Shown one piece after another: positions 6,471 through 20,657 of a DNA stretch of 29,026 nt. The notes beneath the pieces were generated by a model. That model was not told the origin of the DNA. It did not search any database and worked only from the letters and a program-made list of their open reading frames with translations. The DNA is taken from positions 1 to 29,026 of IMG/VR virus record IMGVR_UViG_3300043331_001409, one strand, 5' to 3'. Position 1 is the stretch's first letter. Every line of letters begins with the position of its first letter. The position numbers and the translations under genes were made by a program. The DNA comes from a virus.

Positions 6471-6495
6471 TGGCACACTGGGTGCGTCCGGGTGC

Positions 6496-7335
6496 CTACT
6501 TGGACGCTGGAAGGTCGGGCAGTGCGCGGATTGCCGCCGTGCACTGCTCGTCTCGCACGTGGGTGTACCGGGCGGTGGTGCCCGGGTCAGAGTGGCCGAG
6601 CAGCTCCTGCACGACCCGGAGGTTCGCGCCGCCGTCGAGCGCGCGGGTGGCGAACCAGTGGCGCAGCCAGTGCATGGTGATCTGCGGTAGGCCGATCCGG
6701 TCGAACGCCGCGGCGCCGCCCATGGTGACCCAGTGCGCGTCGGCCGGCGCCCCCGTCCGTGGCTTCGGCCCGACCACGGGCCCGGGGGGCAGTGCGCATA
6801 CCGACGCCCAGATCCGGGGGTGGGTGGGGACGTAGCGCTGTTTGCGGCCCTTGCCGTGCAGCACGATGATCCGCTCCTCGGTGATGTGCTGGCGCTCGAG
6901 GAGTGCGATCTCTTCGCAGCGCAGCCCGCCGTACGCGGCGATGGTCATGCACCGCCGCCAGGGGTCCGGGGCGGTCGCGAGGGCGTAGGCCACCTCGGCG
7001 TCCTCGGGCATGCGCGGCACGCCCTTGTGTACCTTCGGGCGCGCCAGGCCCGCCGCCGGGTTGTAGTCGAGCTGCGGCCGGTCCGGCCGGCACGCCCAGG
7101 TGAAGAACCCGACGATGTGTCCGAAGTAGGTGGCGCGGGTCTCGGGCTTCCACTTCGGGTTGGCCAGCCAGTCTTCGAGCTCCTCGACGGTCGCCGAGAC
7201 CAGCCCGAACGGCAGGTCGCGGTCGAGTGCGGCGAGCACGTACCGGCGGTCGCCGATGGTGTGGTCGGAGAATCCGGCGGCCTGCGTGTGGCGCAGGTGC
7301 CGGGTGATCAAATCATCCATGGCGAGGATCCTCAT
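6496..7335 (-). CDS. int: Tyrosine integrase
   Basis: 279 residues. It would catalyse site-specific integration and excision of the phage at attP/attB. An N-terminal SAM-like core-binding domain (~5-90) is followed by the catalytic domain, which contains every expected residue: R139 ([10 protein letters not shown]), a lysine in HGKGRK (~162), H222 and R225 (HWLRH), H248 (LLGHSD) and Y257 (TTARYTHV). There is no extra arm-type N-terminal domain, so it is on the short side. The ATG at 7335 overlaps the repressor stop (ATGA). Reading through upstream to 7851 would give 451 residues, but that part lies inside the repressor gene in another frame. Repressor and integrase are co-transcribed. Confidence 0.93.
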
Positions 7336-7826
7336 GCTGCGGCCCGCAGGTGCGCCTCGCCCGCCGGGTCGATGATCCGGCGTGCTCGGCGGCCGGGTGA
7401 CGGGCATTCGGTGGAGGGATGTCGCGAGATGTTCGTCAGTGGCCCGTTCGGGCTGGTCGGAGTGGGTCGTTCGGGTTGACCATGATTCGCCAACGTAGGT
7501 ACGTCTCCCCCGTTCGTCCGGGGGACGGGCCGGCCGCGCGCTCCGAGAAGCGGACCGCCGAACAGCAACCAGTCGAAGTCGATGCCGAGGCCGTCGGCGA
7601 TCGCCCGGCAGACCTCGACCTGATCCCGTGGTCTGCGGCCTAGCTCCCAGTTCGACCACGAGTTGTAGTTGACACCGCATCGATCTGCGGCTTCTCGCTG
7701 TCCGATGTGGCCAGCGTGGTGTCGCGCAAGGATCAGTCGGGCCGAGAACGTATCGGCAGGTATGTCTCCTTTCGGCTGGGTTGTCGCAGGCGTGGCAAGT
7801 GAGTGCTCTCCGGCTTCTTTCCCCAT
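7332..7826 (-). CDS. Immunity repressor, XRE-type HTH
   Basis: 164 residues. The domain at ~25-88 ([34 protein letters not shown], then [14 protein letters not shown]) is an XRE/Cro-CI helix-turn-helix like the repressors of many actinophages. The C-terminal half (90-164) is Pro/Arg/Ser-rich and probably disordered; no LexA-like cleavage domain is visible. A promoter-like element places the transcription start at or within a base or two of ATG 7826, so the mRNA may be leaderless, and an inverted repeat lies between its -35 and -10. An AAAGGAG sequence further inside the gene is not followed by a usable start. It is coupled to the integrase gene by a 4-bp overlap. Confidence 0.88.
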
Positions 7827-11339: not shown

Positions 11340-11935
11340 CCGGGCCCGTGCCGCCTGTGCCGGCGGACCGGGTCGAGGCGTGGGCCCTGGTGGCGCGGGC
11401 GCAGGCCGGCGACCGGGACGCGTTCGGGCAGCTCTACGAGCGGTACTTCGACACCGTGTACCGCTTCGTGTGCCGCCGGGTGCGGTCGCATCGGCAGCTG
11501 GCGGAGGACCTGACCGCGGACACGTTCGTACGGGCGCTGCAGGGCATCGGCCGGGTGCGGCGCACCGCCGCGGATCCGGGGGCGTGGCTGGTGGCGGTCG
11601 CCCGCAACATCGTCGCTGACCACTACAAGTCCGCCGCGGTGCGCCGCCGGGCATCGGACTCGGAGTGCGTTGACGTCCCTGATGTCACGTCGCGGGAGCC
11701 CGGTCCGGCCGAGCTGGCCGAGCTGGCTGCCCTGCGCCAGTGCCTCGGGGTGGCGGTGGCCGCCCTGGTGCCGGGGCAGCGCCGCACGATCGAGGACCGC
11801 TTCTACCGCGGCCTGTCCGTGGAGGAGTCCGCAGCCGCCGCCCGGCTCACCGTGGGCGCGGTGAAGGCCAGCCAGGCGCGGGCCTGCCGCAACCTCGCTG
11901 ACCGCATCTCACCGTCGTGGGGGATCTCATGCTGA
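11336..11935 (+). CDS. ECF-like RNA polymerase sigma factor
   Basis: 199 residues; GTG 11336 overlaps the previous TGA. Region 2 (~28-98: AFGQLYERYFDTVYRFVCRR, LAEDLTADTFVRALQ, PGAWLVAVARNIVADHYKS) and region 4 (~143-190: LVPGQRRTIEDRFYRGLSVE, ARLTVGAVKASQARACRNLA) are both present without region 3 or 1.1, the ECF architecture. It should recruit host core RNA polymerase to specific promoters, plausibly for later phage genes or for reprogramming the host. A short membrane protein gene overlaps its end. Phage-encoded ECF-type factors are not common, so its target promoters are of interest. Confidence 0.88.
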   Translation: MTGPVPPVPADRVEAWALVARAQAGDRDAFGQLYERYFDTVYRFVCRRVRSHRQLAEDLTADTFVRALQGIGRVRRTAADPGAWLVAVARNIVADHYKSAAVRRRASDSECVDVPDVTSREPGPAELAELAALRQCLGVAVAALVPGQRRTIEDRFYRGLSVEESAAAARLTVGAVKASQARACRNLADRISPSWGISC

Positions 11936-14507: not shown

Positions 14508-14737
14508 CCGGCCAGGCGGCACCCCGGGGGAAACACGACCTGGATCCGGATCCGGAGCTGCGCGAGGACTTCAGCGGCCGGAAAGTGTGCCGGGCCTGCG
14601 GCCTGATGGGCAAGCCGGGCGACGCGCGTCACCGGATGCGGCCGGCGCCGCGGCCCCGGGTGCCGGCCGGGCCGCCGCCGACACCGGACGCGGCCCGGGA
14701 GCTGGACGCCCGGATCCTCGGTGAGCGCGATGGGTAG
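14504..14737 (+). CDS. Small hypothetical protein with CxxC
   Basis: 77 residues from GTG 14504 (GTGA overlap). KVCRACGLMGKPGDARHRM contains one CxxC plus a histidine, followed by a Pro-rich segment (PAPRPRVPAGPPP) and a short helix. It overlaps the methyltransferase start by 8 bp, so the two are co-translated and may be functionally linked. Function unknown. Confidence 0.5.
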   Translation: MTGQAAPRGKHDLDPDPELREDFSGRKVCRACGLMGKPGDARHRMRPAPRPRVPAGPPPTPDAARELDARILGERDG

Positions 14738-15605
14738 CGCCGTGGTGTTGCGCGACGCGTCGCTCCGGGCCACGTCCGACGCGTCGCACCCCGAGGCGGG
14801 CGACGCGTCGGGTGACGCCGGCATGGACGCGTCGCCCAGGACCTCGCCGACGCGTCGGCAGTGCGCCTGGTGCTCCGGGCCGATCCCGGCGCGGGCTCGG
14901 CGGGACGCGGTGTGCTGCTCAACCAGGTGTCGGCAGGCCCGCCACCGCTTCACCCGCACCGTCGGTGTGCCGTGGCGATCCGTCGACCCCGGCCGCCAGC
15001 TACGCCTCGCCTACGCCGACCCGCCATACCCGGGCAAGGCGTGGCTGTACCGGGGCCACCCGGACTACGCCGGCGAGGTCGACCACGCCGCCCTGATCCG
15101 TACGTTGTCGACGTACGACGGGTGGGCGCTGTCGACCTCGGCAGCGGCGCTGCCCGCCGTGCTGGCCCTGTGTCCGCGCGGTGTGCGGGTCGCGGCGTGG
15201 CACCGCGGCGAGCGGCCCACGGTCAGCAGGTGGCCGCTGAACGCGTGGGAGCCGGTGATCTACCACGGCGGCCGGCCGGCCGATCCGTCGCGTGGGGACG
15301 GGGCGCTGCAGGCGCGACGGGTCGACTCCCTGGTTCACGGCGTCGCCCCGATGACCACCCTGCCCGGCCGGGTGGTCGGCACCAAACCGGCCGCGTTCTG
15401 CGGCTGGCTGTTCGACCTGCTCGGCGCCCTGCCCGGCGACAGCTTCGATGACCTGTTCCCGGGGTCGGGTGCTGTCGGCCGGGCGTGGGAGGCGTACGCC
15501 AGCGCCGAGCCGTCGCACATACCAGGTGGTGATCCGTCGCATCGGGCCCGGGCCGACGCGTCGTACCCGCCGGCCGGCACGACGTATCCCGGGGGTGCTC
15601 GGTGA
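14730..15605 (+). CDS. Adenine-type DNA methyltransferase with repeat-rich termini
   Basis: 291 residues from ATG 14730 (overlaps the previous stop; GTG 14721 is an alternative). Residues 9-40 consist of four octapeptide repeats starting DAS. A Cys cluster (CAWC at 45-48, CCSTRC at 62-67) is a probable zinc finger. The catalytic core has LAYADPPYPGKAW (DPPY at 97-100) and, later, DDLFPGSGAVGRAWE (243-247), i.e. motif IV before motif I, the circularly permuted order of beta/MT-A70-like N6-adenine methyltransferases. The C-terminal 30 residues again form octads (EPSHIPGG, DPSHRARA, DASYPPAG). No restriction partner is nearby, so it is probably an orphan enzyme for protecting or regulating phage DNA. 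Confidence 0.82.
   Translation: MGSAVVLRDASLRATSDASHPEAGDASGDAGMDASPRTSPTRRQCAWCSGPIPARARRDAVCCSTRCRQARHRFTRTVGVPWRSVDPGRQLRLAYADPPYPGKAWLYRGHPDYAGEVDHAALIRTLSTYDGWALSTSAAALPAVLALCPRGVRVAAWHRGERPTVSRWPLNAWEPVIYHGGRPADPSRGDGALQARRVDSLVHGVAPMTTLPGRVVGTKPAAFCGWLFDLLGALPGDSFDDLFPGSGAVGRAWEAYASAEPSHIPGGDPSHRARADASYPPAGTTYPGGAR
14753..14857 (+). repeat. Five CGACGCGTCG palindromes at 23-24-bp spacing
   Basis: Palindromes at 14753, 14777, 14801, 14825 (9 of 10 bases) and 14848. The first four are in frame and encode DAS of the octapeptide repeat; the fifth is shifted by 1 nt and is read in a different frame. Further exact copies are seen at 15554 and 11081. Confidence 0.85.
15510..15588 (+). repeat. 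24-bp periodic repeat at the 3' end of the methyltransferase gene
   Basis: CGTCG occurs at 15511, 15535 and 15559, with a degenerate unit at 15583. Each 24-bp unit encodes an octapeptide of the form D(A/P)S(H/Y). The unit length matches the N-terminal array. Confidence 0.7.
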
Positions 15606-16554: not shown

Positions 16555-17192
16555 CGGCGATCGTGGGCCTGGTCCACGACGGCCAGGTGTACGTCGGGGG
16601 CGACTCCGCCGGCGTGGCAGGGCTCGACCTGATGGTCCGGTCCGATCCCAAGGTCTTCACGCTGCCTGGCGGCTACGTGGTGGGGTTCACGAGTTCGTTC
16701 CGGATGGGTCAGGTCATCCGCTACGCGTTCACCCCACCTCCGGGTGCCCTGGTGGCCAAGGACCTGCACGGGTTCATGTGCACAAAGGTCATAGACGGTC
16801 TGCGCGAGGCCCTGAAGCTCGCCGGCTGGGCAACGAAGGACCAGGAGCGGGAGAGCGCCGGCACGCTGCTGGTCGGTGTGGCTGGGCGGCTGTTCCGAAT
16901 CGAAAGCGACTACCAGGTCGGCGAGGCGGCTGACGGGTACGACGCGGTCGGCTGCGGCGCACAGGTGGCCATGGGCGCGCTGTTCGCGTCGAGGCCGGAC
17001 CTGCACATCACCCCGTGGACGCCACCGGAGCGTGTGGTGATGGCGCTCGAGGCGGCGGAGCGGTTCAGCGCCGGTGTGCGGGGGCCGTTTACGGTCGCCG
17101 TCACCGGGCCGCTGCCGGAAGGCCGGGAGCCGACTTCGGCTGAGGCCATCGAGGCCGCCAGCGACCCGGAGGGTGGTGCCGACCGTGGCTGA
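16551..17192 (+). CDS. Proteasome-beta/HslV-like Ntn hydrolase
   Basis: 213 residues from ATG 16551 (ATGA overlap). After removal of the initiator Met the sequence begins TAIVGLVHDGQVYVGGDSAG, which fits the proteasome-beta/HslV N-terminal strand, and numbering from that threonine gives T1, D17 (GGDSAG) and K33 (SDPKVF), the catalytic triad of this family. GYVVGFTSSF and SAGTLLVGVAGRLFRIESD match later core strands. There is no propeptide, as in HslV. It may act as a self-compartmentalised peptidase or replace or block a host proteasome-type complex. No ATPase partner is seen nearby. The C-terminal tail PEGGADRG recurs in the next protein. Confidence 0.8.
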   Translation: MTAIVGLVHDGQVYVGGDSAGVAGLDLMVRSDPKVFTLPGGYVVGFTSSFRMGQVIRYAFTPPPGALVAKDLHGFMCTKVIDGLREALKLAGWATKDQERESAGTLLVGVAGRLFRIESDYQVGEAADGYDAVGCGAQVAMGALFASRPDLHITPWTPPERVVMALEAAERFSAGVRGPFTVAVTGPLPEGREPTSAEAIEAASDPEGGADRG

Positions 17193-17193
17193 G
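17155..17193 (+). repeat. Gene-boundary repeat, copy 1
   Basis: From CCGCCAG through CCCGGAGGGTGGTGCC to CCGTGGCTGAG, spanning the end of the Ntn-hydrolase gene and the start of the next. It matches 17450-17485 with one substitution and a 3-nt indel. Confidence 0.8.
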
Positions 17194-17484
17194 ATCGTCA
17201 CCTGGGTTACCGAGACCACGACCATCAGTACCGGCGCTAGGTCCGGCGACACGGTCACCACGGGAAAGACCACCGTCACGCGCGTCACGAGCTTCAGGGC
17301 CAACCACCCCGACGTCTCAGTGCTTCGCGACATGGTCCGCGCGCTCGACATCGCCGGGGCGCCAGGCCGGGCTCTGCTGCGAATCACCAGTACCGACATC
17401 AGCGCCGAATGGACACAGGAGCCGACACCGGCCGAGGTGCCCGAGGACTCCGCCAGCCCGGAGGGCGGTGCCGACCGTGGCTGA
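17185..17484 (+). CDS. Hypothetical protein, 99 aa
   Basis: GTG 17185, overlapping the previous stop by 8 bp through the CCGTGGCTGA junction. The Thr-rich N-terminal half (IVTWVTETTTIS, DTVTTGKTTVTRVTSF) is beta-like, followed by a helix (VLRDMVRALDIAGAP) and a strand. The C-terminal PEGGADRG is identical to that of the upstream Ntn hydrolase. Function unknown. Confidence 0.55.
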   Translation: MAEIVTWVTETTTISTGARSGDTVTTGKTTVTRVTSFRANHPDVSVLRDMVRALDIAGAPGRALLRITSTDISAEWTQEPTPAEVPEDSASPEGGADRG

Positions 17485-17485
17485 G
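17450..17485 (+). repeat. Gene-boundary repeat, copy 2
   Basis: Second copy of the 17155-17193 boundary sequence, again spanning a gene end and the following GTG start. A third, weaker relative (GGAGGG...CCGTGGCTGA) is at about 17887-17908. Confidence 0.8.
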
Positions 17486-18579: not shown

Positions 18580-18584
18580 GTTCG

Positions 18585-18625
18585 CTTTCACGAGTAACAA
18601 CGATGTTGATCTATTGAATTGGCGG
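18585..18625 (+). promoter_or_regulatory. AT-rich putative promoter for the HNH/iteron gene
   Basis: After the terminator the sequence is unusually AT-rich. TTCACG followed 17 nt later by TCTATT is a possible -35/-10 pair; GGGGG then precedes GTG 18634. The match to consensus is weak; the AT-richness and position are the main evidence. Confidence 0.3.
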
Positions 18626-18633
18626 GGGTCGAC

Positions 18634-19815
18634 GTGGCGTACTACCTGCTCGACGACCAGTTCGCCGACGACGTGATCTGGGATGCACTCTCGGGCGGCA
18701 GTCAGGCGCTACTCGACGCCATCCAAGCCGCCTTCACGCGCCTGGCGAGCAAATCAGCGCACCTGCTGACCGACGGGTACCTGACGGCCGAGCTGGCCGC
18801 GAAGTACGCCCGGCCGAAGGTCCTGGAGCTGCTGACCCGGCCGGTGCTCGGCCGGCCGCCGCTGCTGCACAAGCCGGGCGACGAGTGCGAGTGCCTCGGC
18901 GACGAGTGGACCGAGGGGTACGCCTACCGCATCCACAAGTTCCTGCGCCGGAACCCATCGAGAGCGGAGCACAACCGCAACCGGCAGCAGAAGGCGGACC
19001 TGCGCGACAGCCGCCTGAAGAACCTCGTGTGGCTGCGGGATGGGAAGTGCTGCCGGTACTGCGAGTCCGGCCCCCTGCACCCGAAGTCGGGCCGAAACAA
19101 GGACCGGCGGAAGGTCCTGCACTTCGATCACGTGGACCCGGATGCGCCAGCGGGCCCGGCCGGCGAGAACCTCGTGACGTGCTGCGCCCGCTGCAACGAG
19201 CACAAGGGCCACCGGACGCCGCAGGAGGCCGACATGGTGCTGCTGCCGGAGCCGACCGAGGCGGAGCGGGCCACCATGGCCGGCCGGGACCAGGCCGTGT
19301 TCGACCTGCCCGACGCGTTGGCGAATCAGCCGCGGGATCAGCAACAGATCAGCGACCGATCACCGACGAATCAGCGACAGACCACTGATCGGACCACTGA
19401 TCCGGTCACTGATCCCGACGTTGGTCCGAACGCTGATCTGCAGCGGCGGCGCGCAGCTGAAGAACGCCCTGAACAGGCCGAACGGCGCACAGATCAGCCG
19501 CGGCCGACGGCAAGGAAGGGTCCGGGTCGGGGCGGGGCGGGGGCCGCCGATCCCGATCCGGTCGCCGCTCCCCCACCTACTCCACGGACCTCGGCGGACC
19601 CGGACGTCTACACGAAGCGCTCTCGCCCCGGACCGCCCACCCAAGCCCAGCCACGCACCCCAGCACCAGCCGCCACCCACCAGCGCCGGAGACTCTCTGA
19701 CCCCTTCGATCCGGGCCGACTCGACCTCGCCCACCTGACCGATGACGACGCCGGCTGGCCTGCCGGCGCCCGCCCAGCACCCCGATCCGCCCGTGCCGCT
19801 GTGGAGGACCGATGA
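18634..19815 (+). CDS. HNH-domain protein with internal iterons; candidate replication protein
   Basis: 393 residues from GTG 18634 (GGGGG about 6 nt upstream; a TTG at 18619 is in frame). The N-terminal helical part (VAYYLLDDQFADDVIWDALS, HLLTDGYLTAELAAK) resembles the start of phage primosome/replication-type proteins. The HNH domain at ~130-195 has CRYC (140-143), HFDHVDP (H163, H166), LVTCCARCNEHK (C184, C187, H190). The C-terminal ~190 residues are Pro/Arg/Thr-rich and unstructured, and their DNA carries the iteron array 19324-19439. This recalls lambda O, where the origin lies inside the initiator gene. The HNH assignment is firm; the replication role is inference. Confidence 0.8.
   Translation: MAYYLLDDQFADDVIWDALSGGSQALLDAIQAAFTRLASKSAHLLTDGYLTAELAAKYARPKVLELLTRPVLGRPPLLHKPGDECECLGDEWTEGYAYRIHKFLRRNPSRAEHNRNRQQKADLRDSRLKNLVWLRDGKCCRYCESGPLHPKSGRNKDRRKVLHFDHVDPDAPAGPAGENLVTCCARCNEHKGHRTPQEADMVLLPEPTEAERATMAGRDQAVFDLPDALANQPRDQQQISDRSPTNQRQTTDRTTDPVTDPDVGPNADLQRRRAAEERPEQAERRTDQPRPTARKGPGRGGAGAADPDPVAAPPPTPRTSADPDVYTKRSRPGPPTQAQPRTPAPAATHQRRRLSDPFDPGRLDLAHLTDDDAGWPAGARPAPRSARAAVEDR
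19324..19439 (+). repeat. Two-arm iteron array (candidate origin)
   Basis: Left arm: five units of 11-12 bp with core ATCAG/ATCAC at 19325, 19337, 19348, 19359 and 19370 (e.g. GATCAGCGACC). Right arm: five 12-bp units with inverted core CTGAT at 19385, 19397, 19409, a degenerate one near 19421, and 19433 (e.g. GACCACTGATCC). The left-arm spacing is not a multiple of three, so the repeats are not explained by protein repeats. Confidence 0.8.
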
Positions 19816-20657
19816 GCACCGAGCCGCTGACACCAGACCAGGAGTACCGGGACCTGATCGACGACACGATCCGAGCGGCGGCCCGGCTGGCCCGGGCGGT
19901 CGGCTGGCTGCTGGTGCTGGCCGAGCCGGGCCGGGAGCCACGCCCGTCGACGCGGCCGGCAAACGAGGACCAGGTCGAGGTGCGTACCGCAGCCTGGTAT
20001 CGGGAGCAGGCGGAGCAGGCGCGTGCCCGCAGGCTCGGCCTGGCCGGGTCGGATCGTCCGTGGGGTGGCCCGTCCGCGGCGCCGGCCCGGGTGGCGCTGC
20101 TCGACGGGTACGCGGAGGTGTACGAGGCGGTGTCGACCGCGCTCGACGCGACCGGCCTGGTCGACACCGTGCCGCCGTGGACGCCGGTCGGGTCGAGGCG
20201 GGTGGTCGAGGGGATCGACTGGCTGGCGGGGCCGGGTGAGGCGTGGGTGGTGGACCGGACCGGGCGGGCACGCCGGCGGTGTGTCGTCGCCGAGCTGCCC
20301 GCGCATCGGGTGGACCGGGTGCGCGGTCTGCTCGAGCGGGCGGCTGAGCGGGCGGAGGCAGCGGCCGGGATCGAGCGGCAGCTGACGGTGCCGTGGCCGG
20401 GTGGTGCCCGCTGTCCGGCGTGCGGGCGCCGGTCGCTCGAAGTGGACGTGACGGTGCCGCAGCATCGGTGGTGGGTGGTGCGGTGCACTGCGCGGGCGTG
20501 CCGGTGCAGTGGGCCGGGGTGTGGGTGTGGGCAGCGGGTGCGGTACGAGGGGCGGGCGCACGCCTGGCCGGCGAGCGAGTGGGAGATCCTCGCCGATCGG
20601 CTGCGGGTGCCGGGTCGGCCGGAGGTGCGCAGCGGGCAGGCGGGCCGCGGGTGGTGA
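19812..20657 (+). CDS. Hypothetical protein with C-terminal zinc-binding cysteines
   Basis: 281 residues; ATG 19812 overlaps the previous stop (ATGA). Residues 1-100 are helical (YRDLIDDTIRAAARLARAVG) with an early hydrophobic stretch. The C-terminal ~80 residues hold a CPACGRRSLEVDV knuckle, then CTARACRCSGPGCGCGQRVR, i.e. many cysteines suited to two zinc ions. I have seen similar 'WYREQAEQ...CPACGRRSL' proteins in actinophage early regions. It probably binds DNA or assists the upstream HNH/origin protein. Confidence 0.6.
   Translation: MSTEPLTPDQEYRDLIDDTIRAAARLARAVGWLLVLAEPGREPRPSTRPANEDQVEVRTAAWYREQAEQARARRLGLAGSDRPWGGPSAAPARVALLDGYAEVYEAVSTALDATGLVDTVPPWTPVGSRRVVEGIDWLAGPGEAWVVDRTGRARRRCVVAELPAHRVDRVRGLLERAAERAEAAAGIERQLTVPWPGGARCPACGRRSLEVDVTVPQHRWWVVRCTARACRCSGPGCGCGQRVRYEGRAHAWPASEWEILADRLRVPGRPEVRSGQAGRGW

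Follow-up and report, generated by a model that had tools for sequence, protein, structure and literature searches.

The replication origin of phage lambda lies in the middle of the O gene, and its iterons are found there (PMC7466680). In SPP1, oriL is located within gene 38, and the initiator gp38 binds direct repeats inside its own gene (PMC6316719). In this study, we analysed a DNA stretch of 29,026 nucleotides, positions 1 to 29,026 of IMG/VR virus record IMGVR_UViG_3300043331_001409. It is called the window here, and coordinates refer to it unless a locus of a relative is named. The sequence appears to come from a small actinobacterial phage. A gene of the window that encodes an initiator-like domain and an HNH domain carries a repeat array within its coding sequence, which an earlier note, made from the letters alone, had proposed as a candidate phage replication origin. 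A 36,057-bp viral contig with 21 bp common to both ends matched the window without a difference in every stretch compared and completes the circle. The 7,010 bp of this 36-kb circle outside the window had head-tail, major-head, and tape-measure matches.

The HNH-fusion gene and its repeat array

The gene and its parts are listed below.

18634..19815, plus strand: initiator-like gene, 393 aa, with winged-helix domain, HNH nuclease domain, and disordered linker
18634..18963, plus strand: N-terminal winged-helix domain of replication-initiator type, from the AF2 model, fold matches, and PHROG matches of relatives
19036..19236, plus strand: HNH nuclease domain, Pfam HNH_5 at 28.6 bits (cut-off 27.5)
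19322..19377, plus strand: left arm of the putative iteron array, 5 units with core ATCAG (4 exact), spacing 12, 11, 11, 11, codon phases 1, 1, 0, 2, 1
19380..19439, minus strand: right arm of the putative iteron array, 5 units of 12 bp with inverted core CTGAT (4 exact), all in phase 0
19518..19543, plus strand: G-run element GGGTCCGGGTCGGGGCGGGGCGGGGG, the top plus-strand G4Hunter score of the window (2.23)

The GTG at 18634 was chosen as the start by alignment with relatives beginning M-x-[YF]-[WF]. The letters ggcggggg stand just before it, and TTG at 18619 is an alternative start. The 40 bp directly upstream of the gene (18581-18620) have the lowest GC content of any such stretch in the window, 35%, and may act as a promoter or be a site of unwinding.

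The array is located in the linker after the HNH domain and consists of ten units (19322-19439). Exact ATCAG cores were found at 19325, 19337, 19348, and 19370, and the fourth left unit was ATCAC (19359). Exact CTGAT cores were found at 19385, 19397, 19409, and 19433 with right-arm spacings of 12, 12, 12, and 12, and the fourth right unit was degenerate (GTTGGT at 19421). The positions, the two opposed arms, and the spacings (12, 11, 11, 11 on the left and 12 on the right) given in the earlier note were confirmed, and its ten units are to be read as 8 exact cores out of 10, with two units degenerate. The core does shift through reading frames as it had described, as seen in the codon phases of the left arm. 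One additional ATCAG was present at 19493. TRF detected both arms, at 19336-19381 (period 11) and 19380-19415 (period 12). ATCAG or CTGAT occurred 67 times in the 29-kb window, 8 of them in the 125-bp array stretch, and the runner-up cluster had 3. The right arm is also an in-frame tetrapeptide repeat (TTDR TTDP VTDP). The GC content of the array was 57-60% compared to about 72% for the genome, making it the fourth lowest separated 100-bp stretch of the window. The GC profile of the window showed no clear AT-rich unwinding block beside the array.

The N-terminal domain was modelled confidently by AlphaFold2 using 24 aligned sequences (pLDDT 92.4, pTM 0.86). Its fold matched the DnaD NTD (2v79, Z 4.3), a Rep-DNA complex (5kbj, Z 4.5), human ORC (Z 4.6), and also Rio2 kinase (Z 5.8) in the PDB, all with middling Z-scores (<6). 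In a viral structure library, it matched 'Replisome organizer' with probability 1.00 and also HTH proteins of actinophages. Pfam gave no match to this domain, and a sequence search of the PDB gave nothing meaningful. Two PHROG families named 'replication initiation protein', phrog_2447 and phrog_3926, were matched by 18 and 15 of the 24 aligned N-terminal domains, respectively. The domain of the window itself had no direct PHROG HMM match at the E 0.01 threshold, and the link runs via these aligned relatives. Streptomyces phage VWB gp15, which is a phrog_2447 protein at E 1.9e-51, aligned to the profile of the HNH-fusion family (hhalign probability 99.3). These results support a relationship, at the level of sequence, between the N-terminal domain of the family and phage replication initiation proteins, and they bear out the remark of the earlier note that the gene begins like a replication protein.

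In the HNH domain, the D-H, N, and N residues and four Cys (catalytic and zinc residues) were kept in 25-26 of 26 sequences, and therefore the domain is probably an active nuclease. A set of His and Cys residues, H76, C82, C84, and H98 (numbering from 18643), was kept in 24-26 of 26 sequences. It is placed between the winged helix and the HNH domain (18634-18963) and is possibly a second metal site.

ORF scans of the window and the missing 7,010 bp recognised an integrase, a sigma factor, a repressor-like protein, and structural proteins. When the main ORFs of the 36-kb circle were scanned with Pfam and PHROG, no polymerase, helicase, loader, primase, or other initiator was recognised, with divergent proteins being possible. 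Thus the statement that no other initiator is evident, made earlier for the window, holds in these scans for the whole circle. A weak primase-like zinc-finger match in ORF 14721-15605 (phrog_8643, E 0.00045, over a 38-aa stretch) was left uncounted. The GC skew, which had been named as a check on the origin, was monotonic over the window with no switch at the array and gave no origin signal. The sigma factor is encoded at 11375-11935 (Pfam Sigma70_r2, phrog_1740). A stretch of about 69 bp is present in two copies (17126-17193 and 17418-17485, 81% identical), both being the 3' ends of neighbouring ORFs that each end in PEGGADRG.

DNA-level constraint in the window and in relatives

The linker was subjected to a leave-one-out, information-weighted motif search and compared with recoded versions of itself, in which synonymous codons were resampled or permuted and the peptide was unchanged. 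The best 9-mer motif of the linker, ATCAGCGGC, scored 70.9, compared to 36.7 +/- 4.7 when codons were resampled from locus usage (z 7.2) and 36.5 +/- 5.4 when synonymous codons were permuted (z 6.4). In 17 of 18 control ORF stretches of the window, the permutation z was at most 2.4. The exception was the ORF directly downstream (19812-20657, z 6.1/5.0), in which the sites of the motif, GAGCGGGTG, were scattered without 11-12 bp periodicity. Two cruder counts gave little for the window itself: that of 7-mers was only weakly significant (p 0.04), and that of 9-mer pairs was weak. This is because the right arm repeats at the peptide level as well and such counts are dominated by GC-rich chance matches. 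The motif statistic was adopted after these weak results, and therefore the pooled spacing test described below and the control ORFs outweigh the single z-score. Since the left arm uses all three codon phases, a peptide repeat cannot explain it.

Protein searches found relatives whose parts come in the same order in phages of Gordonia and Arthrobacter. Further loci came from viral contigs and from genomes of Micromonospora, Actinoplanes, Umezawaea, Brachybacterium, Brevibacterium, and Dietzia. In Gordonia phage Bunker, Arthrobacter phage Elesar, and Brevibacterium phage AGM10, the gene was at a similar position, also upstream of the genome's terminase/cos end. Most relatives had 11-12 bp repeats in the linker right after the HNH domain, with a differing core. 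The cores were GATCAGC/GCTGATC in L088, GATCAAC/GTTGATC in L003, GACAAC in L011, GACCAGC in L018, GATCAAGTT in L012 (close in L025), ACCTGCGAC in L009 and L010, and GACCTAAGTC in L183, and further cores were also present in L185 and L179. Opposed arms, with left steps of 11-12 bp and right steps of 12 bp, recurred in L003 (11, 11 / 12, 12), L088 (12, 11, 11 / 12-bp steps), L009 (12, 11, 12 / 12, 12), and L010, and a single arm was found in L012, L025, and L015. In the motif test, the single loci L016, L017, L022, L026, and L015 were below significance. In one genome (G110), a same-scoring relative was found on seven contigs and a partial copy on an eighth (contigs C2-C9; L180, L188, L194, L196-L199), which may be a multi-copy element or an assembly duplication.

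Spacing was pooled over 29 loci including the window, from actinobacterial phages and prophages, in which loci of one clade are not independent. Same-strand 11-bp steps numbered 37 compared to 6.0 expected under a peptide-preserving null, and 12-bp steps numbered 60 compared to 22.9. An 11-bp step cannot preserve the reading frame. These results, together with the z-scores of the linker, support DNA-level selection on the array, as had been claimed from its sequence. The earlier note had named homologues that keep the peptide and lose the DNA repeat as the outcome against its proposal; across the 29 loci, the reverse was found. In sequence comparison, the linker of the family tends to keep an 11-12 bp array while the peptide and the core sequence change.

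The G-run element downstream of the array gave a less uniform picture. The locus-wide G4Hunter maximum fell in the linker at 14 of 26 loci, compared to 1.5 expected. Only 8 of the 26 had a value above the peptide-preserving null (p <= 0.05), and the window was one of these (p 0.004). Counts of GGG tracts showed overall no excess over synonymous nulls. The signal in the linker is partly due to the glycine-rich peptide. Since only 8 of 26 loci exceeded the peptide null, the evidence for DNA-level selection on the G-run stretch is suggestive. As a lead, the stretch may be an unwinding, priming, or nicking element. The G-run motif seemed to change frame between L009 and L185, which was considered as a sign of DNA-level constraint. 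This reading was dropped, because a 5-bp repeat can be aligned in more than one register and the G-R-x-G peptide is in frame in the alignment.

Explanations of the array

The array could be a peptide-level artefact, in which a low-complexity linker (TTDR/TTDP/VTDP) has repeats that resemble iterons. The right arm is indeed an exact in-frame tetrapeptide repeat, DPIT/DPVT is present in several Micromonospora-type relatives, and the simple 7-mer test gave only p 0.04. However, the left-arm units stand in all three frames, the arms are inverted, 11-bp steps are six times commoner than the peptide allows, and the periodicity is constant while the cores differ between relatives. We therefore regard this explanation as very improbable. 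It is also hardly credible that the gene encodes a selfish HNH endonuclease, homing or otherwise, with the array as a part of its target or regulatory site. The HNH_5 match does exceed the Pfam cut-off, the active site is intact, and nearly all of the annotated relatives listed are named HNH endonuclease. Against this, the gene is not scattered: it is syntenic in the window and in phages of Gordonia, Arthrobacter, and Brevibacterium, with the terminase/cos end and a second HNH gene downstream of it. It is also fused to an initiator-type domain.

Operators, parS, and cosB are also built from such repeat arrays, and the array may be a DNA site of this kind, namely an autoregulatory operator, a partition site, or a packaging (small-terminase/cosB-like) site. 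In its favour, the gene lies close to the genome's terminase end, and cos is annotated downstream of the equivalent genes in the AGM10 record. Against it, the array is about 2 kb from the presumed cos region beside the terminase genes and stands inside a coding linker, not at a promoter, and no ParA was recognised in the ORFs of the window, which carries an integrase. The array also accompanies a gene with an initiator-like N-terminal domain, and we consider a site of other purpose unlikely.

For this array, we infer initiator binding and origin activity, and we think it likely that it is the iteron part of a phage replication origin located inside the gene of its own initiator. The winged-helix domain would bind the units in the two opposed arms, and the nucleoprotein complex at the array would open DNA nearby, the array being among the lowest-GC 100-bp stretches of the window. 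Theta-type replication would follow once the host helicase and polymerase had been loaded. Initiation may also involve the HNH domain and the G-runs downstream of the array. In a bolder version, which we consider rather doubtful, the protein would belong to a new initiator class and, in place of a helicase loader, would use an HNH domain with catalytic activity to nick its own internal origin, at or near the array or the G-runs. In that case, the HNH nick would start replication or switch the replication mode.

If the array is the iteron part of an origin, many genes of actinobacterial phages that carry no label but 'HNH endonuclease' would encode replication initiators with a mappable origin, and there would be a sequence rule for locating origins in phages in which no replication genes are recognised. 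Since the cores vary within a layout that is otherwise fixed, the co-evolution of initiator and origin would be directly testable. An intact HNH active site in an initiator would also pose a mechanistic question that is absent from lambda and SPP1. A literature search, in which subscription papers were mostly outside coverage, found no report of the HNH-fusion family as initiators.

Comparison with known systems

The lambda-type layout of the earlier note was supported in that the array is inside an initiator-like gene, and SPP1 gp38 is as close a model as lambda O. Like the present case, the gp38 replisome organizer of this Bacillus phage has repeats within its own gene. An AT-rich unwinding element, the loader gp39, and the helicase gp40 are present in SPP1; none of them was recognised in the present phage, and the HNH domain is a feature of the present protein. 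Lambda, too, has a gene for a helicase loader or helicase, although such a gene does not define the initiator as a type. Lambda O resembles it in having iterons mid-gene. In ori-lambda, four to six iterons are flanked by an AT-rich region, whereas here ten 11-12 bp units stand in opposed arms, and the gene adds the G-runs after the array and the fused HNH domain.

The PHROG 2447 proteins, such as VWB gp15, have an N-terminal winged-helix domain homologous to that of the family. In contrast, VWB gp15 has no HNH match, and TRF found no 11-12 bp array in gp15. The HNH-endonuclease gene of the Brevibacterium AGM phages (gp50) shares the PHROG families and the genome position, and has short repeats of about 11 bp followed by G-runs near its 3' end. 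Unlike the window gene, it has 198-bp in-frame tandem repeats whose annotated number varies between isolates. In the AGM10 record (L203), these 198-bp repeats are annotated for gp50 (6478-7527), related AGM records differ in length and repeat number, and the short repeats of about 11 bp and the G-runs are at about 7636-7780. Compared to the known internal origins, the HNH fusion, the opposed arms of 11-12 bp units, and the changing cores are new here.
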